A stretch of 64,000 nucleotides of DNA from Rufibacter tibetensis (GTDB lineage Bacteria > Bacteroidota > Bacteroidia > Cytophagales > Hymenobacteraceae): assembly GCF_001310085.1 (NCBI RefSeq), contig NZ_CP012643.1, positions 4,780,001 to 4,844,000 of the forward strand. The letters are read 5' to 3'. Under the pieces are notes generated by a model. It had not been told where the DNA came from. It saw only the letters and a program-made list of their open reading frames with translations, and did not search any database. This document shows, one piece after another, positions 4,798-58,885 of this stretch. Made by a program: the position numbers and the translations under genes. The stretch's first letter is position 1. Each line of letters opens with the position of its first letter.

Positions 4798-4855
4798 AAA
4801 AACCATGCTTCAAGTTTTCAACTTGGAGCTGTCATGCCGCAAGTTTGCAACTTGC
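4798..4855 (+). repeat. Diverged relic of the dispersed intergenic repeat (module B)
   Basis: The stretch starting AAAACCATGCTTCAAG aligns by eye, at roughly 70 percent, with 13367-13424 and 29146-29200, including the core pair of short inverted repeats (CAAGTTTTCAACTTG and GCAAGTTTGCAACTTGC). It lies in the 405-base gap 4607-5011 between two minus-strand genes. Nothing else in that gap is recognisable except the upstream region of the antiporter gene. Confidence 0.55.
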
Positions 4856-5011: not shown

Positions 5012-6196
5012 TTAACGTCCCCGAACCAACCGCCGCATAGCCAGCAAACCCAAAGCAGGCCCAATGGCTAAAAACAGAAACCAATAGGTGGGTGCCACTG
5101 CCACCTGAATACTCCGCAGCAGTTGGATGCTGACAATGGTAATGGCAAAGCCGATGGAATTGACAATAGTGAGGGCCGTCCCTTTCACCTGTACCGGAGC
5201 TGATTGGGCGACCAGTGTAGAGAACTGCGGTGAGTCCATGACTACGGCCAGGCCCCACACCAGCAACAACCCCAGGAACAGCGGCAAAGGCAATTGAAAC
5301 AGCCACGGTGACAGCAGACAGCACGCCATGGAAATGGCCAAAGCTCCGAACGCGGTTTTGGCACTTCCTATATTTCCGGCCAGGTACCCACCGCCTATGC
5401 ACGCCAGGGTTCCGGCGGCAATAATGCAGAACGACAGGAAAGGGTTGTTTAACGTTACCCCGGGGTTTGCTTCTGCATACAAGGCGATGATCACCGGCAC
5501 AAAGGCCCAGAACGTGTACAACTCCCACATGTGCCCGAAGTACCCGAAGGCGGCGGCTCTGAACTGTTTTTGCTTGAATATCTGAAAAAAGGCCGTAAAA
5601 TCTAGTTGGCTGCTTCGGCTTCTGTGGGGACCGTCTGGTACCAGGAAAAACAAACTCAGCCCTCCTGCTACGGCCAGCCCCGAGGTGGCCCAGATGACGT
5701 ACCGCCACGGCAGTCCTTGGGTGAGGCTCTTGAGCAAGTGCGGAAAGGCGGTGCCCAACACCAGCGCGCCCACCAGAAACCCCAGTGCCTTGCCCAAGCC
5801 TTTCTGGTGGTAATCGGCGGCTATTTTCATGCCTACCGGGTAAATGCCCGCCAGGCAAAAGCCCGTGAGAAACCTACTCAGCAGCAAGGTGGAAAGCCCT
5901 TCGGCCCACAGCAAGCTCCAGTTGAACCCCGCTCCCACCAATGCGCACACCAGAAACACCTTTGACGGCGAGAACCGGTCTGATATGGTGAACACGGCAA
6001 ATACCAAGGTACCCAGAATAAAACCCAACTGTACCGCCGAGGTTAAATGACTTAGCGAACTGGCCTCCAGGTGAAACTGCGGAATCAACTCAGGCAGCAC
6101 CGCATTGCCCGCAAACCACAAAGAGGTGCAGGCAAACTGGGCCAGAACAATGATTGGCAGGATGCGGGTAGGTATAGTTGGAAGAGGTGATTTCAA
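5012..6196 (-). CDS. MFS transporter
   Basis: A 394-residue major facilitator with 12 predicted membrane helices. The loop 2-3 signature (DRFSPSKVFLVCALVG) and an inter-half break at about residues 190-215 are visible. Substrate unknown; the N-terminal FACTSLWFAGNAVLPEL pattern is shared by uncharacterised Bacteroidota and proteobacterial MFS proteins. The best start is TTG at 6196, because a TAG stop lies 18 bases upstream and no in-frame ATG precedes helix 1. Two decaying copies of its 5' end lie upstream at 7674-7884 and 8490-8610, so this is the only intact member of a local family. Its GC content is clearly higher than that of the genes just upstream. Confidence 0.88.
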   Translation of the reverse strand: MKSPLPTIPTRILPIIVLAQFACTSLWFAGNAVLPELIPQFHLEASSLSHLTSAVQLGFILGTLVFAVFTISDRFSPSKVFLVCALVGAGFNWSLLWAEGLSTLLLSRFLTGFCLAGIYPVGMKIAADYHQKGLGKALGFLVGALVLGTAFPHLLKSLTQGLPWRYVIWATSGLAVAGGLSLFFLVPDGPHRSRSSQLDFTAFFQIFKQKQFRAAAFGYFGHMWELYTFWAFVPVIIALYAEANPGVTLNNPFLSFCIIAAGTLACIGGGYLAGNIGSAKTAFGALAISMACCLLSPWLFQLPLPLFLGLLLVWGLAVVMDSPQFSTLVAQSAPVQVKGTALTIVNSIGFAITIVSIQLLRSIQVAVAPTYWFLFLAIGPALGLLAMRRLVRGR

Positions 6197-7673: not shown

Positions 7674-7884
7674 TAGGGAACACGGCAAACACCAAGGTGC
7701 CCAGAATAAAGTTCAACTGCACCGCCGAGGGCAAATGACTCAGTGAACTGGCCTCCAGGTGAAACTGTGGAATCAATTCAGGCAGCACCGCATTGCCCGC
7801 AAACCACAAAGAGGTGCAGGCAAACTGGGCCAGGACGATGGTGGGAAGAATGTGTTTGGGGGTTGAAGGCAGCGTGGGATGCAA
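7674..7884 (-). pseudogene. 5' fragment of a second MFS transporter gene
   Basis: Encodes about 70 residues nearly identical to the N-terminus of the intact MFS protein at 5012-6196 (shared run FACTSLWFAGNAVLPELIPQ and beyond, including SAVQL and FILGTLVFAVF). Homology then stops abruptly near 7674 in AT-rich DNA, and the frame ends at 7621 after an unrelated tail. It covers helices 1 and 2 only and cannot be a transporter. Silent differences outnumber amino-acid changes, so it was a functional paralogue until recently. The broken end abuts the upstream region of the propeller gene. Confidence 0.85.
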
Positions 7885-8436: not shown

Positions 8437-8489
8437 TTTATTGTTTTAGGAGCAAGGCAAATAGAATTAAATGAAACTGTATGTAAGAG

Positions 8490-8610
8490 GTAAAGCGGCA
8501 AAGCGAACTCGCCTCCAAGTAAGATTGCAGAATAAGTTTAGGTAGCACCGCAATGCCTGCAATCCAAAGAGTGATGCAGGAAAACTGATCCAGAACAATG
8601 GTGGGGAGAG
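8490..8610 (-). pseudogene. Highly decayed third copy of the MFS 5' end
   Basis: The DNA between CGAACTCGCCTCCAAG and CAGAACAATGGTGGGGAG aligns throughout with the MFS 5' end (6060-6180) and the fragment at 7674-7884, but with scattered substitutions and frame damage; no open frame survives. It lies in the 330-base gap 8437-8766, the rest of which is AT-rich and featureless. The three copies therefore show graded decay in the same orientation. Confidence 0.75.
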
Positions 8611-12940: not shown

Positions 12941-12997
12941 CGTCTTTGCTATCGCTTTGAAAATGGTTTTATAACTTCTTTCTGGAGTTGTTTTGAA

Positions 12998-13036
12998 AGA
13001 GAGCCTGTAGTTGATTGCTACAGGCTCTCTTTTTTA
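12998..13036 (+). terminator. Rho-independent terminator of the DUF885 gene
   Basis: Arms AGAGAGCCTGTAG (12998-13010) and its exact complement (13018-13030) flank a 7-base loop and are followed by six T residues. Confidence 0.92.
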
Positions 13037-13074
13037 TGCTTACTTCTTGTGAAAAGACTTTGTGCATGCGGTTT

Positions 13075-13498
13075 GCTTTTCCCTTGGAGTGAATGGCTTT
13101 GACGTGGGTGCATGAGCTTTGTTGTTGCATCTTTTCTGGTAAGCGCTCACGGCCGCGAGGCCCCGCCTTCCGCCCTCGCGCTGTGAGTTCCACTGCCTTC
13201 GGCTAAAGCCTCGGCTGCCGGACTTTGTCCGGCACCGTAGACCTCTAGGCGCTCAGACGAAAGGCTGGAAACAGAAAAGCGTGGTTTGACTTTTAGAAAA
13301 ACAAAGTTGCTGGAAGACATGTTCCAAGTTTTCCAGCAGAAAACATTGTTCTGAAACTCATACAGAAAATATGGTTCAAGTCTTTGACATGGAACTACCA
13401 TGACCTGCAGTTTGCAACTGCATTGAGGCGTAAGCCTCAAACTACTCTAGCTGATACTCCCCCTTTGAAGGGGGCGAAGGGGGATGTTTACACCTGCA
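13075..13498 (+). repeat. Dispersed intergenic repeat, copy 1
   Basis: A 424-base element that recurs at 28876-29275 in the same orientation. Module A (about 13139-13270) contains GTAAGCGCTC, GGCCGCGAGG, CTCGCGCTGTGAGTTCC, CTGCCTTCGGCTAAAGC and ACCTCTAGGCGCTCA in the same order as copy 2, and can fold into a CTCAC/GTGAG plus GCGAGG/CCTCGC stem and a TGCCGGAC/GTCCGGCA hairpin. Module B (about 13370-13498) contains ATGGTTCAAGTC, the hairpins GCAGTTTGCAACTGC and GAGGCGTAAGCCTC, and CCCCCTTTGAAGGGGG followed by CGAAGGGGGATGTTTACACC. A second, partial module B unit lies at 13524-13600. No open frame is shared. It sits in the 778-base gap between the convergent genes ending at 12940 and 13719. Confidence 0.85.
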
Positions 13499-13661
13499 GA
13501 TACACTGTGTTCATTATTCCATCATGGTTCAAATCTGCGACTAGGACCCAAAATGATCTGCAGCTTGGAACTGCAGTGAGGCGCTAGCCTCATAATGATA
13601 CCACTGAAAATGGCCACTACTCAGCATACCATTTCTTAAAACAAGCCTCCCCTTAAAAGCA

Positions 13662-13697
13662 AAAAGCCGCCGCAGGATTGACCCTGTGGCGGCTTTT
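13662..13697 (-). terminator. Terminator of the aldehyde dehydrogenase gene
   Basis: Arms AAAAGCCGCCGCAGG and CCTGTGGCGGCTTTT pair with a single G-T wobble around a 6-base loop, 20 bases beyond the minus-strand stop at 13719. A second small hairpin (CTGTTTTC/GAAAACAG, 13701-13718) touches the stop codon. Confidence 0.85.
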
Positions 13698-13718
13698 GAA
13701 CTGTTTTCTGGAAAACAG

Positions 13719-17216: not shown

Positions 17217-17280
17217 ACAGATCTTATAAAAAGAGAAGGCCAAGCACATGTGCTTGGCCTTCTCTTTTTATAAGATCTGT
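17217..17280. terminator. 64-base perfect palindrome, bidirectional terminator
   Basis: Two exact 32-base arms meet with no loop bases between them (centre CACATGTG at 17245-17252), beginning ACAGATCTTATAAAAAGAG. The AAAAAGAGAAGG/CCTTCTCTTTTT part supplies a U-rich tract in either direction. It starts 5 bases after the gltA stop and also faces the convergent gene ending at 17393. Confidence 0.85.
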
Positions 17281-20015: not shown

Positions 20016-20075
20016 AAACCAGAATCCCTTTTGGGGCCGTTTTCTAGAAAAAGGCCCCAAAAGGGATTCTGGTTT
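20016..20075. terminator. 60-base near-perfect palindromic terminator
   Basis: Exact 23-base arms (20016-20038 and 20053-20075, beginning AAACCAGAATCCC) flank a 14-base centre that is itself almost self-complementary (TTTTCTAGAAAA). It lies between the convergent genes ending at 19973 and 20117. Confidence 0.85.
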
Positions 20076-21782: not shown

Positions 21783-21833
21783 GTACTCATAAATAAAAAG
21801 GTATCTGGAAGCAAGTTCCTTGGCTAAGTGTTT

Positions 21834-21885
21834 GATGCTCCGTTTGATGGCTGTTTTTACAAAAACAGCCATCAAACGGAGCATC
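21834..21885. terminator. Long hairpin terminator after the DUF1232 gene
   Basis: Exact 25-base arms (21834-21858 and 21861-21885, beginning GATGCTCCGTTTGATGG) around a 2-base loop, in the 311-base gap 21783-22093 between convergent genes. The rest of the gap is featureless. Confidence 0.8.
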
Positions 21886-22093
21886 ACTGTTTTACAGGTG
21901 AAATGTTGTGCCTTAAGTGTTTTCTATTAACATGAATCCTTTTTCGCATTTTGCCAAGAATAGCCCCAGGTTTCAGCCAAGCAACTCCCGGGTTTTTATC
22001 ACTGCCCATGCATTGGGTATAGTCCTGCGAAAACTAGAACATGTACCATGTTGATGGATAGATAGCTACGGAGCCTACATGTGTAGACATAAA

Positions 22094-22984
22094 CTACCCT
22101 TTTGTATTAGGCTTCTTTCCGCGCACCATGTCTTCAATGGTATCCCACATCTCATGCGGAACCTGATCCAGGTAATTGAATTCACCGCCGCCGTAAAGCC
22201 ATTCGCCTCCATCAATGGTGACTACTTCCCCGTTCACGTAGGCAGAATAGTCTGAGATAAGGTACGCTGCTAAATTGGCCAGCTCCTGGTGCTCGCCGTA
22301 CCGTTTCACCGGAATGCGGTTTAAAGGGTCTAATTTCTTCGCCAGTGCCTCAGGGAAAAGCCGGCTCCAGGCACCTTCGGTAGGGAAAGGACCCGGCGCA
22401 ATGGCGTTGGACCGTATGCCGTATTTGGCCCACTCTGCCGCCAAAGACCTTGTCATTGCCAATACTCCAGCCTTAGCCGTTGCCGAGGGTACCACATACC
22501 CGGAGCCGGTCCAGGCATAGGTAGTTACTATGTTCAGGATAGTGCCTGGCTGCTGCAAGTCAATCCAATGTTTGCCTAAGGTAAGGGTGCAATTATAGCT
22601 GCCCTTCAATACGATATCCACGATTACATCAAACGCCTTAGGAGACAATCGCTCTGTGGGGCTGATGAAATTACCCGCCGCATTATTCAACAAGCCGTGT
22701 ACAGCCCCAAACCTATTCAAAGTGGCTTTTAGCATGGCTTCTACTTCCAGTGGCTTTCGTACATCGCAGGCTACAGGTAACACCTGGCCACCTGTTTTCT
22801 CGGCCATCTCTAGGGCTGCTTTCTCCAGAACATCCATTTTGCGACTCGTGATCACCAGGTTGGCCCCTAATTGCAGGAAATAGATTCCCATGGATTTGCC
22901 TAATCCCGTTCCACCTCCGGTGATAATGATGGTTTTTCCGTTCAGTGCACCGTCGCGCAACATGGGTTCTGTATATGCAGCCAT
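22094..22984 (-). CDS. SDR oxidoreductase, 2,4-dienoyl-CoA reductase-like
   Basis: A 296-residue short-chain dehydrogenase. The N-terminal Rossmann signature is TGGGTGLGKSMG, followed by NNAAGNF and the catalytic-helix Lys in SATAKAGVLAMTRSLAAEW. The usual catalytic Tyr of YxxxK is replaced by Ser (SATAK), as in the peroxisomal/bacterial 2,4-dienoyl-CoA reductase branch, and the C-terminal NGEVVTIDGGEWL also fits that branch. It likely uses NADPH to reduce an unsaturated acyl-CoA during fatty-acid oxidation. Start ATG at 22984. Confidence 0.87.
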   Translation of the reverse strand: MAAYTEPMLRDGALNGKTIIITGGGTGLGKSMGIYFLQLGANLVITSRKMDVLEKAALEMAEKTGGQVLPVACDVRKPLEVEAMLKATLNRFGAVHGLLNNAAGNFISPTERLSPKAFDVIVDIVLKGSYNCTLTLGKHWIDLQQPGTILNIVTTYAWTGSGYVVPSATAKAGVLAMTRSLAAEWAKYGIRSNAIAPGPFPTEGAWSRLFPEALAKKLDPLNRIPVKRYGEHQELANLAAYLISDYSAYVNGEVVTIDGGEWLYGGGEFNYLDQVPHEMWDTIEDMVRGKKPNTKG

Positions 22985-28875: not shown

Positions 28876-29275
28876 GCTTTTCCCTTGAAGTAGATGGTTG
28901 TTGAGTTGGCACATTAGCTCTGTTGTTTCATATCGGCGGTAAGCGCTCTCGGCCGCGAGGCACCGCCTTCCCCTCTCGCGCTGTGAGTTCCGCTGCCTTC
29001 GGCTAAAGCATATGCAGACGGGCGCTGCCCGCCACCGCAAACCTCTAGGCGCTCAAGCGAAAGGCTGTAAAAGGGGGATTCGTGGGCTTTGTTCCTGAAA
29101 TACATGGTCGCTGGAATAACATGGTACAAGTTTACATGCAAGAGAACATGGTTCAAGTCTGTGACTTGGACCTACAATGACCTGCAGTTTGAAACTGCAA
29201 TGAGGCGAAAGCCTCAAACTACTCTAGTTGATACTCCCCCTTTGAAGGGGGCGAAGGGGGATGTTTACACCTGCA
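28876..29275 (+). repeat. Dispersed intergenic repeat, copy 2
   Basis: A 400-base counterpart of 13075-13498, again between convergent genes (ends at 28837 and 29680) and in the same orientation. Module A lies at about 28939-29070 and module B at 29146-29275. Shared blocks in order: GCTTTTCCCTTG, GTAAGCGCTC, GGCCGCGAGG, CTCGCGCTGTGAGTTCC, CTGCCTTCGGCTAAAGC, ACCTCTAGGCGCTCA, GCGAAAGGCTG, ATGGTTCAAGTCTGTGAC, CCTGCAGTTTG, GCCTCAAACTACTCTAG and the CCCCCTTTGAAGGGGG block. Module A's inner hairpin has a different sequence (CGGGC/GCCCG) but the same place and fold. The rest of the 842-base gap (29276-29550) contains no gene. Confidence 0.85.
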
Positions 29276-37962: not shown

Positions 37963-37987
37963 GTTGTCCTATAAGAGAGTAGTAAAC

Positions 37988-38656
37988 TTACACATCTTCT
38001 CTATTGGGAACAGTGAGTAACTCTAGGGTATCCAGGTTCAAGGCGGTAAGATACCCCATCCGGCTTTTGAAGACACACCCTCCGTCAATGTTGATGACCT
38101 TTGATACAGGTTTATTGAGGGAAAATTTTATCTGGTTTAACGTGATGGGAGTATGCCCGTGCACAATCCTCCGGTTTCCTAACTTGAACCTATCTACTTC
38201 AAATTCTCTCGCCCACAGCAGCGTATGCCTGTCTTTAGTGGGGTCTGGTATGGCAAAGTTGAAGCCTGCGTGCACCAGCAAGTAGTCGTCCAGTTCAATG
38301 TACAGTTCCAGATCTTCCATGAACTCCCAATAGATGGATTTTATATCTTTAATAGACTCAGCCCTGAAGCTCTTCAACGCTTCTTTGCCTCCGTTGAACA
38401 TCCAGGACGTTAGATACAAATCATTGTCGCGCGCTTTCATAAGCATGTCTTCATGGTTACCACACAGCGCGTACACCCGGTATGTTTGCTTCAACTTCAT
38501 GATGTAGTCCAGCACCCCTTTGGAATCTGGGCCACGGTCAATGTAGTCTCCCAACAGGTACAGCCTGTCTATGTACTTTAACTTAATCACCTCTTCTACC
38601 ATGTACCTGAATGTTTTCAGGCAGCCATGAATATCAGAAATAGCATATCTACTCAT
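37988..38656 (-). CDS. PPP-family metallophosphoesterase, copy A
   Basis: A 222-residue phosphatase with all motifs of the PPP/ApaH-PrpE group: SDIHGC (residues 7-12), GDYIDRGPDSKGV (about 36-48), CGNHEDML (about 65), VHAGF, and HGHTP. These residues bind two metals and the phosphate. Substrates of bacterial members include phospho-Ser/Thr/Tyr proteins and dinucleoside tetraphosphates; I cannot choose. It lies 178 bases downstream of a close paralogue on the same strand. Confidence 0.93.
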   Translation of the reverse strand: MSRYAISDIHGCLKTFRYMVEEVIKLKYIDRLYLLGDYIDRGPDSKGVLDYIMKLKQTYRVYALCGNHEDMLMKARDNDLYLTSWMFNGGKEALKSFRAESIKDIKSIYWEFMEDLELYIELDDYLLVHAGFNFAIPDPTKDRHTLLWAREFEVDRFKLGNRRIVHGHTPITLNQIKFSLNKPVSKVINIDGGCVFKSRMGYLTALNLDTLELLTVPNREDV

Positions 38657-38834: not shown

Positions 38835-39506
38835 TCAGTACTCTTCCCTGTTCCTGAGAGCATGCAGTTCCAGGGTGTCCATGTTCAACGCTACGAGGTA
38901 CCCTAGTCTGCTGGAAAAAACGCATCCACCGTCTATGTTGATGACATCAGAAACAGGGTCAATCAGCGAATCGGCAATTTCGGTAAGGTAGGTGGGCGTA
39001 TGCCCGTGAATGATCTTTCGGTTGCCCAGTATCTTTTTGTCTACCTCAAAATCACGGGTCCAGAGCATAGTGTCCCGGTCAGAGAAAGGGTTCTTAGCCG
39101 AAAAGTCAAACCCGGCATGTACCAGTAGGTAATCTTCCAGTTCTACATAGAGCTGTAACTCTTCTATGAACCGCCAGTAAGGCATGGGAATACCAAACAA
39201 GGTTTCTACTCCAAAGCTTTTCAACGTTTCTTTCCCGCCGTTGAAGAACCAATTGTCTGTGTAGCCCGAGCTTTCCAAGGCATGCAGCATCATGTCTTCA
39301 TGGTTTCCCCAAAGGGTAATTACCTGGTAGCCATTGCGGCGGAGTTCCATTATAAAATCAATCACCCCTTTAGAGTCGGGGCCACGGTCTATGTAGTCTC
39401 CTAATAGGTACAGGGTGTCTGAGGTCTGTAAATTTATTTCCTCCTCAACCATGTACCTGAAGGTTTTGTTACAACCGTGGATATCTGAAATGGCGTATCG
39501 GCTCAT
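38835..39506 (-). CDS. PPP-family metallophosphoesterase, copy B
   Basis: A 223-residue paralogue of the downstream gene, sharing MSRYAISDIHGC, KTFRYMVEE, LYLLGDYIDRGPDSKGV, WGNHEDM, LLVHAGFDF and IIHGHTP. All metal and phosphate ligands are kept in both copies, so both should be active; differences concentrate in the middle cap region that would set substrate choice. Upstream it diverges from the addB-like gene. Confidence 0.93.
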   Translation of the reverse strand: MSRYAISDIHGCNKTFRYMVEEEINLQTSDTLYLLGDYIDRGPDSKGVIDFIMELRRNGYQVITLWGNHEDMMLHALESSGYTDNWFFNGGKETLKSFGVETLFGIPMPYWRFIEELQLYVELEDYLLVHAGFDFSAKNPFSDRDTMLWTRDFEVDKKILGNRKIIHGHTPTYLTEIADSLIDPVSDVINIDGGCVFSSRLGYLVALNMDTLELHALRNREEY

Positions 39507-45437: not shown

Positions 45438-45488
45438 TGATTATTAACTATAAATACAATTTGTACATTTTTAATTTTAATTGATAGA

Positions 45489-45570
45489 GCCTTCTTCAAA
45501 ACAAAAGGCTCCTTGCCTAAGGAGCCTTTTGTTTTGAAGAAGGCTTCTTAGGCAAGGAGCCTTTTGTTTT
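45489..45570. terminator. Bidirectional terminator with two alternative stems
   Basis: Exact 24-base arms (45489-45512 and 45521-45544) form one hairpin. In addition 45498-45521 is the exact complement of 45547-45570, so the same left strand can pair with either of two right arms. It serves the small plus-strand gene ending at 45437 and the minus-strand gene whose stop codon (45569-45571) overlaps the last arm. Confidence 0.85.
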
Positions 45571-51712: not shown

Positions 51713-52924
51713 ATGAATAGAACTACGTTTAAAAAAGCTGTCTCCTTTTTTGCTTTGGCTTCGGTGTTTTCCATGTCAGGTTGCCAGCAGGATGAATTAG
51801 TGGAAGAATCAGCTATTCTTCCTGCAGAACCAACTGCCTCTTCAAAAACCATTGAAGGGAAGTTCATTGTTGTTTTAAAAGACAATAACCTTTTATCCGG
51901 CAAATCGCTTCGCGAAAAGGTTTTAGGGAAAAATGGATTAGAGAGTAGTCGTGCCCGCGAAGTATTTCAGGGAGCATTCAACGGTTTTTCCGGTTCTTTC
52001 AGCAAAGATGAGATAGCCCGTCTCAGAGCAGACCAAAATGTAGCTTTTATTGAACCAGACCAAGCAGTGATGCTTGGAAAAGGTTCTCCTAAAACATCCA
52101 CTTTCAATACCTCTTCTCCAATTGCAAGTACCTCTACTACCACAACTACTACTTCCAGCACTTCTACCCAGGTAATTCCTTGGGGTGTTTCTCGGGTTGG
52201 GTATGGTGATGGTACAGGTAAGACAGTTTGGGTTATTGATTCTGGTGTACAGTCAAGCCACCCAGATTTAAACGTGGATAAAACCCGTAGCAAATCCTTT
52301 ATCTATGGAGATGCTTCTTATGAAGATGGATATGGTCATGGAACTGGCGTTGCCGGTATCATTGGAGCAAAAAACAACAACATTGGCGTTGTAGGAGTTG
52401 CTGCCAATGCTTCAATTGTAGCCCTTCGTGTATTTGACAATACTGGTTACGGCACCCTTACACGTATCTACTCTGCCTTGAATCACGTGTATAAGTACGG
52501 GAATCCAGGGGACGTAGTAAACATGAGCTTACGCGTTTCTGCTTCTACCATGTTAGATGACCTGGTAAAGAAAACAGCCGCTCGCGGTATTTTCATTGCC
52601 GTTGCCTCTGGTAACAGCTACATTGATTGCAAGGACGACTCTCCTGCTCGTGTGATCGCGCCAAACGTATTTGTTGTGTCCAACATGGACTCTTACGGAA
52701 GATTCAGTCCTTCTTCTAACTTTGGAGCTTCTGTAAAATTCTCTGCTCCAGGCACTAATATCCAAACTACCTGGAAAGGTGGCGGGTACACTACTGGTAA
52801 CGGTACTTCATACGCTGCTCCGCACGTAGCTGGTATTCTTGCACTAACCGGAGGAAGAGTTAATTCCCAAGGGTATGTTTCTAATGACCCAGATGGATTG
52901 ACAGATCCTATTGCATTAAAATAA
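51713..52924 (+). CDS. Subtilisin-like (S8) serine protease lipoprotein
   Basis: A 403-residue protease. A lipoprotein signal peptide has the lipobox MSGC (Cys24). Residues about 48-122 are an I9 inhibitor pro-domain (GKFIVVLKD to ADQNVAFIEPDQAVML), followed by a Ser/Thr-rich linker (residues 129-153, with seven Thr in a row or nearly so). The S8 catalytic triad is complete: Asp176 (VWVIDSGV), His209 (GHGTGVAGI) and Ser366 (GTSYAAPHVAG), with oxyanion Asn301 (ASGNS). It is expected to be anchored in the outer or inner membrane and to mature by self-cleavage of the pro-domain. It diverges from the S24 regulator gene. Confidence 0.95.
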   Translation: MNRTTFKKAVSFFALASVFSMSGCQQDELVEESAILPAEPTASSKTIEGKFIVVLKDNNLLSGKSLREKVLGKNGLESSRAREVFQGAFNGFSGSFSKDEIARLRADQNVAFIEPDQAVMLGKGSPKTSTFNTSSPIASTSTTTTTTSSTSTQVIPWGVSRVGYGDGTGKTVWVIDSGVQSSHPDLNVDKTRSKSFIYGDASYEDGYGHGTGVAGIIGAKNNNIGVVGVAANASIVALRVFDNTGYGTLTRIYSALNHVYKYGNPGDVVNMSLRVSASTMLDDLVKKTAARGIFIAVASGNSYIDCKDDSPARVIAPNVFVVSNMDSYGRFSPSSNFGASVKFSAPGTNIQTTWKGGGYTTGNGTSYAAPHVAGILALTGGRVNSQGYVSNDPDGLTDPIALK

Positions 52925-52931
52925 ATAAAAT

Positions 52932-52986
52932 GCCCTAAAACAAAGAAGGCCGGTTACTTAGTAACCGGCCTTCTTTGTTTTAGGGC
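52932..52986. terminator. 55-base palindromic terminator
   Basis: Exact 27-base arms (beginning GCCCTAAAACAAAGAAGG) meet around a single central base. It begins a few bases after the protease stop and faces the convergent recQ (end 53077). Confidence 0.88.
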
Positions 52987-53076
52987 AAACTCCTGAAAGC
53001 TTGCTTTTTACTACTTATTTGAAATTAGAAGCAAAACTACCTTCCTTTCACCTTGTTGATAGAACAAGGATAAACT

Positions 53077-55209
53077 TTATCCATTCTCCTTGTTGAACCG
53101 ACCAATTCCAAGTCTGATTTTCATGTAATCTATTTCTCCTTCCAGATATTCAAAAATTGGCTTCATAGCCGCAGTCTGCTTGGTCTTAAGGATTGCCTCT
53201 CGCACCCTACTGTACTCCCAGTCAGACAAGTATGGTTTCAAATCAATGTCGTAGCCTTGCTGGTACAAAGTAGCTAAATGGGAGTAGATAGTGGTCAATT
53301 GCACTTGCCGCTGCTCAGAGATCTCTTCTGGAGTTTTGCCCTGCCGAAGCAGTTCATAGGTGACCAGATGCGTAGTCCCTTTGATTTTAGCTTGTTGCTG
53401 TTCTGCTTGTTGGGCCAGAAAACTCAAAATGGAATTGATGAAGATTTCACCATACTGTTCGTACTTGGCCTGAGCCACCCCGGAAATAGACAGGAAAGCA
53501 GGTTTGTTTGTGGGTCGCTGCTCCACAATCTCCTGCAAAGTATTATCTGTAAAAACCACGTACGGCGGAATGTTCCTTTCACTGGCCAGTTGCTTTCTGA
53601 GTTGCCTTAAATGCTCAAATAAGGCTGTCTCCACCCCACTTCTTGATTTCTTCTGCCGCTTTTCTTTCTCTTCTTTGGGAAGCGGCGCCTGGAATTTAAC
53701 CAGTTCCACTTTTTTACCTTTGAAAAGAACTTCTTGACTGGCATTGGTTAACTTCAAGGCACCATGCTCATCATACGCTACCTCCAGTATACCCTGGTTG
53801 ATAAGCTGATGAATGTACCGCTGCCAATCCTGTGAGGGTACTTCCCTGCCGGCTCCAAAGGTTTTCAACTGGTCATAGCCTCTGGTCAACGTAAGCTGGT
53901 TGCGGGAGCCACGAAGAATATCAACTACTTGCGCAGAAGCTATCGTTTCTTTCGTTCGGGCTACCGCCGATAAAATTTTCTGCGCCAGTTCAGTTCCGTT
54001 GAATGACGTAGGCGGATTGTCACAGATGTCACAGTTCCCGCAATCACGGGAATATTCCTCCCCAAAGTAGTGCATCAGGGTTTTACGGCGGCAACTGGTG
54101 CTTTCAGCAAATTGCTGCATTCTATCCAGCTTCGCTAAGGACAAGGCTTGTTCTTTGCTGTTTTCACCTTGGGTCACAATGTCTCGCAGGGTCATGACAT
54201 CAGCTAAGCTGTAAAACAGCAGCGCCTCGGCAGGTGCTCCGTCACGTCCTCCCCTCCCAATTTCCTGGTAATAGCTTTCCAGGTTTTTTGGGAGGTTGTA
54301 ATGAACAACCCAGCGCACGTTTGACTTGTCAATCCCCATCCCAAAAGCAATGGTGGCGCACATGATCTGGATGTTATCCTGCAGGAATTTTTCCTGCACC
54401 TGCTCCCGGTCTCTAGCCGATAAGCCTGCATGGTAATAATCTGCGTTGTAACCTTTCTCCTTCAGTTTGGCAGCCAGTGACTCACAGGCTTTCCGGCTGA
54501 GGCAGTAAATGATACCGGGCTGAAAGGGACGCTCCTCCAGAAAGTCCAGTATAGCTTCCATGCGTTTCTGCCCCGGCTGCACCTGAAGGTGAATGTTAGG
54601 ACGGTCAAACGAGGAAATAAATACTTTAGGGTCCTGAAGGTAAAGCTGGGTAAGAATGTCCCGTTGTGTAAGACGATCAGCAGTGGCGGTCAGGGCTATG
54701 ATAGGCACCTCCGGAAACTGGAGTTTCAGGTTCTTCAGCTGCAAATACTCCGGCCGAAAATCATGTCCCCAGGCAGAGATACAGTGCGCCTCATCAATGG
54801 CGAAGAGATTTATTTGAAGGCGCTTCAAAAAGGAAAAAAAGCCTGCTGAAAGAAGTTTCTCTGGAGAAACATACAGCATTTTCAAGCGACCGTCAAAGCA
54901 TTGCTGCTCAATTAACTGCTGTTCTTTAGTAGACTGAGAGCTGTTCAGGTACCCAGCATTTACACCGTTACCCAACAAGGCTTCCACCTGGTCTTTCATC
55001 AGGGCAATCAAAGGGGAGACTATAACACTGAGGCCGGGCATCACCAAGCCTGGCACCTGGTAACACACAGATTTACCGCCCCCGGTTGGCATCAACACTA
55101 CCGTGTCTCGCTTTTCCAGTACGTTTGATATGATATCTTCCTGACCCGGTCTGAACTGATCGTAACCAAAATACTGCTTCAGAACTTCCCGTGCTTCCCT
55201 TACTCCCAT
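53077..55209 (-). CDS. recQ: RecQ-family ATP-dependent DNA helicase
   Basis: A 710-residue 3'-5' helicase of recombination and fork repair. Motif I PTGGGKSVCYQVP (about 41-53), DEAH with HDFRPEYL, GIIYCLSRKACESL, ATIAFGMGIDKSNVRWVVHY, and QEIGRGGRDG. The RQC zinc ligands are Cys residues in CRRKTLMHYFGE and CGNCDICDN. A winged helix, an HRDC domain (about 520-600) and a C-terminal helix-turn-helix (GKTPEEISEQRQVQLTTIYSHL) follow. Length is somewhat above E. coli RecQ (about 610) because of the last domain. Confidence 0.97.
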   Translation of the reverse strand: MGVREAREVLKQYFGYDQFRPGQEDIISNVLEKRDTVVLMPTGGGKSVCYQVPGLVMPGLSVIVSPLIALMKDQVEALLGNGVNAGYLNSSQSTKEQQLIEQQCFDGRLKMLYVSPEKLLSAGFFSFLKRLQINLFAIDEAHCISAWGHDFRPEYLQLKNLKLQFPEVPIIALTATADRLTQRDILTQLYLQDPKVFISSFDRPNIHLQVQPGQKRMEAILDFLEERPFQPGIIYCLSRKACESLAAKLKEKGYNADYYHAGLSARDREQVQEKFLQDNIQIMCATIAFGMGIDKSNVRWVVHYNLPKNLESYYQEIGRGGRDGAPAEALLFYSLADVMTLRDIVTQGENSKEQALSLAKLDRMQQFAESTSCRRKTLMHYFGEEYSRDCGNCDICDNPPTSFNGTELAQKILSAVARTKETIASAQVVDILRGSRNQLTLTRGYDQLKTFGAGREVPSQDWQRYIHQLINQGILEVAYDEHGALKLTNASQEVLFKGKKVELVKFQAPLPKEEKEKRQKKSRSGVETALFEHLRQLRKQLASERNIPPYVVFTDNTLQEIVEQRPTNKPAFLSISGVAQAKYEQYGEIFINSILSFLAQQAEQQQAKIKGTTHLVTYELLRQGKTPEEISEQRQVQLTTIYSHLATLYQQGYDIDLKPYLSDWEYSRVREAILKTKQTAAMKPIFEYLEGEIDYMKIRLGIGRFNKENG

Positions 55210-58065: not shown

Positions 58066-58200
58066 AAGCGTTTTCTAAGTCAGTAATATGTTCAGACGCG
58101 CAAAACAACAAAAAAGATACTGGATTGGAAAGGATGAGAGAAGTATCGTTTTGATACCCTTTTCTGTAAAAGGAGCATTAAACATCCTTTTGTAGCTGTC

Positions 58201-58243
58201 CTACAAGCGAAAGAGCCGCGCTGGGCGGCTCTTTCGCTTGTAG
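58201..58243 (-). terminator. Terminator of the chemosensory operon
   Basis: Exact 19-base arms beginning CTACAAGCGAAAGAGCCGC around a 5-base loop, 19 bases past the cheC stop. Confidence 0.9.
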
Positions 58244-58261
58244 AAAAAATGGTCCTTCCCC

Positions 58262-58885
58262 TTATTTAGTCAGGAAGTTGTAGGACCGGATGATCTCTAA
58301 TATTTTGATAAAGGTGTTGGTGTCAAAGAATAGAAGCAAGGGCAACTCAACCATTTTAGAGTTATTGGTGAATTGGGTGATTACTGTGAACACCAGTGGC
58401 TGAAACAAAGGATGGTCTGTAAAGATACCTTTCAAAGATTCTGCAATGTCATGCTTGGGAGCTACCGGCGGAGAGCCGTAAATACTAGCCTTCAAAATAT
58501 TAGCTAATTGCGTTACAAGAGCTCCGGTGATGATGTTGCTCACCTCCAACAGAAGTGATTCCTGCATCTCGGTGAGCGGTTCATTTCCTTTCACGGTCAT
58601 GCCCAAACATACTTTGGATAGTTGCTCCACATGCAGCTCAGAAAACAGCATTAAAGTGGAACCATTCAGCTCCCCTTTAATATCTGACTGAATGATGGTG
58701 TGCGAGTTTTCGTAGGCTCTTACAATCTTTAGAAGCTCTTCCGCTTCCATCAACTGCAGATCAGGTACTTTTAACAGCACACGGTCTTTGGCAATCACTG
58801 CAAACGAGTCAGCTGCCCGGGCAAGTCCAATGTTCAGGATTTCTTTGATGATATCCCGCTCTAGTTCATTTACTTGAAGCTCCAT
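58262..58885 (-). CDS. cheC: CheC-like CheY-phosphate phosphatase
   Basis: A 207-residue CheC/CheX-fold protein. Both active-site motifs of the D/S-x3-E-x2-N type are present: Asp11-Glu15-Asn18 and Ser110-Glu114-Asn117. It is expected to dephosphorylate the CheY of the operon. Neither CheD (its usual regulator) nor a FliY is in the window. It is the last gene of the operon, 36 bases after cheA. Confidence 0.9.
   Translation of the reverse strand: MELQVNELERDIIKEILNIGLARAADSFAVIAKDRVLLKVPDLQLMEAEELLKIVRAYENSHTIIQSDIKGELNGSTLMLFSELHVEQLSKVCLGMTVKGNEPLTEMQESLLLEVSNIITGALVTQLANILKASIYGSPPVAPKHDIAESLKGIFTDHPLFQPLVFTVITQFTNNSKMVELPLLLFFDTNTFIKILEIIRSYNFLTK

Follow-up and report, generated by a model that had tools for sequence, protein, structure and literature searches.

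Module A, the structured part of a repeat that lies between genes of Rufibacter tibetensis, may represent a new, mobile-like family of intergenic elements that are short (~230 bp), non-autonomous, and centred on the fold of a single strand, a reading given a probability of roughly 0.45. In the window, which is the whole stretch of 64,000 nucleotides that was analysed, the original prediction had described a dispersed repeat of about 400 bases with two copies and a relic. Both copies are real (77% identity over 429 columns, E = 9e-93, in an alignment of copy 1, 13075-13498, with copy 2, 28876-29275, within the window), but they are not one unit: the 400-base block is a composite of the structured module A and of short repeats, B and C, that are separable from it.

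Module A comprises a folded core of ~120 nt and a tail of ~85 nt. In copy 1 it occupies positions 13062..13284, the minus strand being the likely functional one, so that it begins earlier than the start at 13075 assigned to it originally; its left end at 13062, GTGCATGC, is common to many copies of the home genome, not all, and its right limit was set by eye. In copy 2 it extends over 28876..29095 (minus strand), as defined by the alignment of the two copies, the right limit again being set by eye. The covariance model R1, which was built on the plus strand and matches in plus orientation, locates the cores at 13118..13270 (114.4 bits, E = 1.6e-30) and 28919..29070 (86.4 bits, E = 9e-23), both read as minus-strand features. 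Module B, a short palindromic (REP-like) repeat, lies on the plus strand at 13371..13439 in copy 1, according to the alignment and a match to its consensus, and at 29147..29213 adjoining copy 2, where it matches the consensus; module C, also a short palindromic repeat, is found on the plus strand at 13453..13498 in copy 1 and at 29230..29275 adjoining copy 2, and the two sequences are 100% identical. Of two extra partial B units originally proposed, one is sound (13523..13592, plus strand, 78% identical to the first B over 69 bases, with a 26-base match to the B consensus), but the B-like relic at 4798..4855 (plus strand) is weak, with only 13 exact bases (4841-4853; E = 0.046). Module B is present in 28 of 37 home sources and module C in 11 of 37, and in a relative module C occurs without module A (locus L242, where the C sequence is present and the core was not found). 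At two loci of R. glacialis (L386 and L370), the tail left of the core includes tandem partial units of ~55-60 nt that start with GTGCATGC or similar.

Several other repeats were observed in the window: long, perfect or near-perfect inverted repeats that are probably bidirectional terminators (17217-17280, 20016-20075, 52931-52987, 21833-21886, and 45488-45570), an internal duplication covering neighbouring ORFs (38022-38656 versus 38869-39506, 66% alike), and a 175-base repeat (5990-6164 and 7678-7852) with a more diverged third copy (8463-8608).

Both window copies are situated between convergent genes, as originally described: copy 1 between genes for a DUF885 protein (plus strand) and an aldehyde dehydrogenase (minus strand), copy 2 between genes for an HI0933-like flavoprotein (plus strand) and a DeaD-type RNA helicase (minus strand). 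The further claim that neither encodes a protein also appears to hold, the only ORFs that overlap them being TTG-start ORFs of 97, 80, and 81 amino acids. A protein-coding origin of the family was rejected because each of six reading frames, set from one or the other core end, is open in just 8 to 96 of 155 cores; the length of the core, 107-157 nt with all three remainders on division by 3, likewise argues against coding. Among 36 of the 46 home copies, placed with a crude ORF caller, 17 are between convergent and 3 between divergent genes; by this caller, an ORF of at least 110 amino acids overlaps 26 of the 155 cores (3 of the 36 home copies), and 27 of the 155 are without one neighbour.

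What is conserved in the core is its fold, with base changes on one side of a stem matched by changes on the other. The predicted shape combines a long closing helix, which carries an exchangeable arm at its tip, with a small adjacent hairpin (GGCC-loop-GGCC). For 17 named pairs in 32 diverse cores, 94.5% of cells are standard pairs, and pairing falls to 29-55% when the partner strand is slid; cells changed on both sides number 64 versus 22.0 in shuffles (none of 500 shuffles reaches 64), of which the two innermost pairs give 28, yet these pairs are unpaired in 17/64. The number of pairs with a change on both sides (7 versus 5.8 in shuffles, 39/500) and the number of further pair types (14 versus 13.9 in shuffles, 321/500) are the two of five covariation measures that were unremarkable, the structure having been derived from the same alignment. 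At seven stem positions in all 155 unique cores, 1042 of 1085 cells are Watson-Crick pairs. Mean identity within class I of the home genome is 0.87 for the core, with bins up to 0.98 in the stems and of 0.59 in the loop of the arm, 0.49-0.72 for the tail, and 0.28 beyond (the binned figures hold for four groups, with ruber and two others left out). Stems that are so alike in copies with varying loops and tails suggest constraint on the fold, acting either on resident copies or on those lineages that spread. A known RNA family was rejected as the source of this fold: Rfam gave 0 matches in the window at the gathering cut-off, and in eight home loci plus window positions 12950-13700 no match on the element reached its cut-off.

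The functional strand is likely the minus strand of the window, according to pairing tallies and modelled folds. One helix position varies among the 155 cores as C.A (102), C-G (23), T-A (16), or G-C (12), and pairs in 153 of 155 cores on the minus strand, where C.A becomes U.G, versus 51 of 155 on the plus strand; the other seven stem positions have 16 cells of A.C type and 7 of G.T type. With 16 pairs in 32 sequences, 500 of 512 cells are paired on the minus strand and 467 of 512 on the plus strand, pairs 55-197 and 65-187 having entered this tally for their look of minus-strand wobbles and the invariant pair 67-185 having been left out of it. Without 55-197 and 65-187 the tally is 442/448 (minus) versus 436/448 (plus), and when every pair is counted, the invariant T.G pair 67-185 included, it is level (501/544 versus 498/544). 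The covarying closing helix is seen on the minus strand in the predicted folds of both window copies, at -71.1 kcal/mol (z = -3.65) for copy 1 and -59.4 kcal/mol (z = -0.90) for copy 2; the corresponding plus-strand values are -61.9 kcal/mol (z = -3.61) and -44.9 kcal/mol (z = 0.79). Across the family, the minus strand folds better than the plus strand in 146 of 155 cores, by a mean of 8.2 kcal/mol, the composition-shuffled control being also minus-leaning, by 3.4 kcal/mol. Thus, the minus strand is likely but not proven, as varying columns and energies favour it and the invariant pair 67-185 favours the plus strand. The same data bear on an unlikely alternative, a DNA-level repeat that forms cruciforms and affects supercoiling, the structure of the nucleoid, or termination, a role proposed for REP/BIME sequences: the copies are dispersed intergenic palindromes, many near gene ends and many with REP-like modules beside them, and the strand tally is level once all pairs are counted, but the better fold of the minus strand exceeds that of the shuffled control (-8.2 versus -3.4 kcal/mol), one varying column pairs on the minus strand only, and the branched closed fold goes beyond a simple palindrome.

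The family is genome-wide. BLAST found 64 matching pieces in the home genome, and the covariance model, run in plus orientation and based on 32 of the 155 unique cores after filtering at ~80% identity, found 46 core matches when 150 candidates out of 839 were scored. All 46 lie on contig C1; 43 have at least 78.7 bits and 3 are weak, with at most 48.4 bits. The model also matched 48 cores in R. glacialis, and in Rufibacter sp. XAAS-G3-1 the count reached the scoring cap, giving at least 150. The search of the genome and its relatives suggested with the original prediction thus uncovered many copies, and neither of the outcomes named as speaking against it, a lack of further copies or copies that are parts of protein genes, appeared. 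Altogether 158 of 173 candidate core hits passed, the 15 dropped including chance matches and copies cut by the end of a locus. In one genome (G031), many matches lie ~240-800 nt from contig starts (C18, C53, C19, C5, C15, C52, C35, C43, C24, C6, and C21), as would be expected if assemblies broke at near-identical repeats; close inverted pairs of cores occur in other genomes of genus g4.

All 15 relatives in the genus match by DNA search, and at a cut-off of E = 1e-4 the covariance model, run on 204 genomes from the bacterial family, matches 68 and leaves 136 without a match; the matches fall in four of six genera, including 16 of 16 genomes of the home genus. Six genomes of genus g3 have 1 to 3 matches each under strict filters, and genome G007 has at least 15 elements. 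An exact-pattern scan names Rufibacter, Pontibacter, and Sabulibacter as carriers among the matches listed, which comprise at least 120 loci; 14 of the loci listed fall outside these three genera and were left out as chance-like. In the order as a whole, 31 of 390 genomes match, 27 of them in the same family. The other four each give a single weak match (E = 9e-8 to 6.8e-6), which might be a relative or an ancestor of the repeat that exists in one copy. Three of these four belong to genus g16 of family f11 (G046, G366, and G479), and the fourth is G054. Carriage by plasmids or phages was rejected, 234 bases of copy 1 being without a match in plasmid and phage collections, and three viral contigs with a 19-base pattern were dismissed on finding, by eye, that the partner strand is lacking.

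Comparison of relatives indicates that many element sites are old and that their occupants were often replaced. At the copy 2 site, 10 of 16 genomes of the genus, the home genome included, have an element in the same orientation and one has a reversed element; the flank fetched from the other five gave none. The copy 1 site is filled in 5 of 16, and one more genome has an element across the gene. Of 42 home elements, 21 share some flank with R. glacialis and 15 share both flanks and orientation (the comparison used 35 of the 48 R. glacialis elements found). At the 16 shared sites, one of them matched on the left flank only, the class of the inner arm differs in eight, agrees in seven, and is ambiguous in one; the tail at the shared site is anywhere from the 3rd to the 32nd most similar among 35, and where the class agrees the core of the other species is still 0.77-0.87 alike versus 0.86-0.93 for the best home paralog. 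In 128 of 144 cores, versus 15.0 expected, the nearest neighbour belongs to the same species. Old sites with often replaced content are suggested because flanks and orientation are shared while arm class, tail, and core similarity differ.

Other sites are occupied in just one relative. Across the region that is syntenic with the window, where elements were called by a pattern allowing three mismatches, the copy 2 site is filled in the home genome, R. glacialis, and XAAS-G3-1, and the copy 1 site in the home genome and R. glacialis; XAAS-G3-1 alone has elements in the gaps corresponding to window positions 21784-22112, 52924-53081, and 58132-58262, and R. glacialis alone in that at 37965-37988. 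When filled and empty sites were inspected by eye for target-site duplications, several repeats were seen to sit together there, which blurs the exact junctions, and in the R. glacialis loci that were read, the repeats right of the core vary with the arm class. Elements that occupy sites empty elsewhere make the family mobile-like, and such sites may reflect gain rather than loss, by movement of copies within each genome. A comparison of insertions in G023 and G027, both of genus g4, was set aside, the shared block being mostly 72-89% alike and uninformative.

The main rival, possible if rather unlikely, is a multi-copy functional RNA family, consisting of RNA genes or 3'-end elements that are selected at old sites and kept uniform by gene conversion. 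It would account for the constrained fold with matched changes, for stems that are alike in copies whose loop and tail vary, for sites and orientation shared between genomes, and for the few decayed copies (3/46). In the same vein, two observations weigh against a mobile element: the 43 strong and 3 weak hits among the 46 of the home genome, with their alike stems, also fit selection on resident copies, and plain descent would suffice at the seven same-class shared sites. However, a copy number that differs threefold or more among relatives, with 1 to 3 matches in some g3 genomes under strict filters, is at odds with an RNA family, as are sites filled in one genome only, and variation of the right-hand repeats with arm class in R. 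glacialis is not expected from short gene conversion tracts. Of the original proposal of a genome-wide, non-autonomous mobile or regulatory family, the genome-wide, intergenic, hairpin-rich, and mobile-like character has stood, and the family may be mobile, regulatory, or both.

If module A is mobile, its movement would require an enzyme from elsewhere, for which the candidates are weak. No autonomous copy was found, and the copies that were read contain no gene. The genes next to the copies form clusters of at most five members, so that no gene family recurs there, and a recurrent neighbour gene was rejected as the partner on this ground. The original expectation of a transposase with matching ends was not borne out: no partner transposase was found, and inspection of the ends of 36 home copies by eye revealed no terminal inverted repeats. 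A retroelement dependent on an RVT_1 reverse transcriptase (PF00078) is not supported: no such gene was matched in the home genome or in six others of the genus (9 of 16 have one), and G007, which bears elements, has no RVT_1 match. A REPIN-type family moved by a RAYT (Y1) enzyme is very unlikely. A Y1 match is present in 15 of 16 genomes of the genus and REP-like modules accompany many copies, as that explanation would have it, but the core was found at none of 16 Y1 loci searched, out of 45 Y1 matches in the genus, on which ground RAYT was rejected as the partner; the single Y1 transposase gene (RAYT-like) of the home genome is flanked by repeats that differ from the element, and G007 has elements and no Y1 match. 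The home Y1 locus, L086 (C1:185526-188753), has inverted repeats of its own (GCTGGCGCGAGC...), and in L058 and L063 a GCTGGCGCGAGC-like repeat lies on the right-hand side of the elements.

As a mobile-like family, module A might operate as follows. The selected part would be the ~120-nt fold of one strand, probably the minus strand, acting as single-stranded DNA or, if transcribed, as RNA; the element would need this fold of its own and a host partner enzyme supplied in trans. Copies would increase in number in a genome and come to lie mostly downstream of genes, in many cases in convergent gaps, being tolerated at gene 3' ends. A filled site would tend to remain so over speciation, its occupant being replaced by the current version of the species, either by a new insertion at or beside the old copy or by recombination between copies. 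A more specific version, to which little weight is given, is a bacterial SINE-like element, a gene-less RNA of ~200 nt that would make copies of itself by way of a single-strand intermediate and a borrowed enzyme and would rewrite older copies at fixed addresses; if so, the whole element set of a genome would be converted to the current version. Module A adds a multi-copy structured element, absent from Rfam, to a bacterial family, and it offers a clear case of sites that are common to species and occupants that are different, in which the persistence and uniformity of short gene-less bacterial elements can be tested, along with the unit of selection, be it folded RNA or single-stranded DNA.

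Among known systems, ERIC and BOX are multi-copy repeats, as is module A, a comparison made by description and not by sequence. Group II introns and the RNAs of IscB and TnpB exemplify mobile units with a conserved RNA fold, from which module A differs in having no Rfam match at the cut-off, no gene inside its copies, and no recurrent neighbour; from classical MITEs it differs in having no terminal inverted repeats (by eye, in 36 home copies). No paper on this element was found among those that the literature searches listed, as judged by titles. The bcr repeats of the Bacillus cereus group are described as multi-copy intergenic families, some likened to MITEs, and bcr10 and bcr18 as having a conserved secondary structure and being found in transcripts (PMC3446304, PMC2267715); ERIC is mentioned there among the families predicted to share secondary structure (PMC2267715). 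Module A resembles the bcr repeats in being a multi-copy intergenic repeat with conserved structure, and is set apart by its different hosts, again by description and not by sequence comparison; differing occupants at shared sites are seen for the module A family. REPINs are inverted REP doublets beside RAYT genes, and share with module A a non-autonomous, intergenic, hairpin-forming character, compensatory changes, and a population conserved within the genome (PMC3116915, PMC6006769). Module A differs in its larger, branched core and in the lack of a core at 16 Y1 loci; two inverted REP palindromes are not its build, the core being a hairpin plus a closed branched helix, with module B separable. 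Module A is filed under no named family, as a new family of dispersed structured intergenic repeats whose nearest kinds are the bcr repeats and REPINs.
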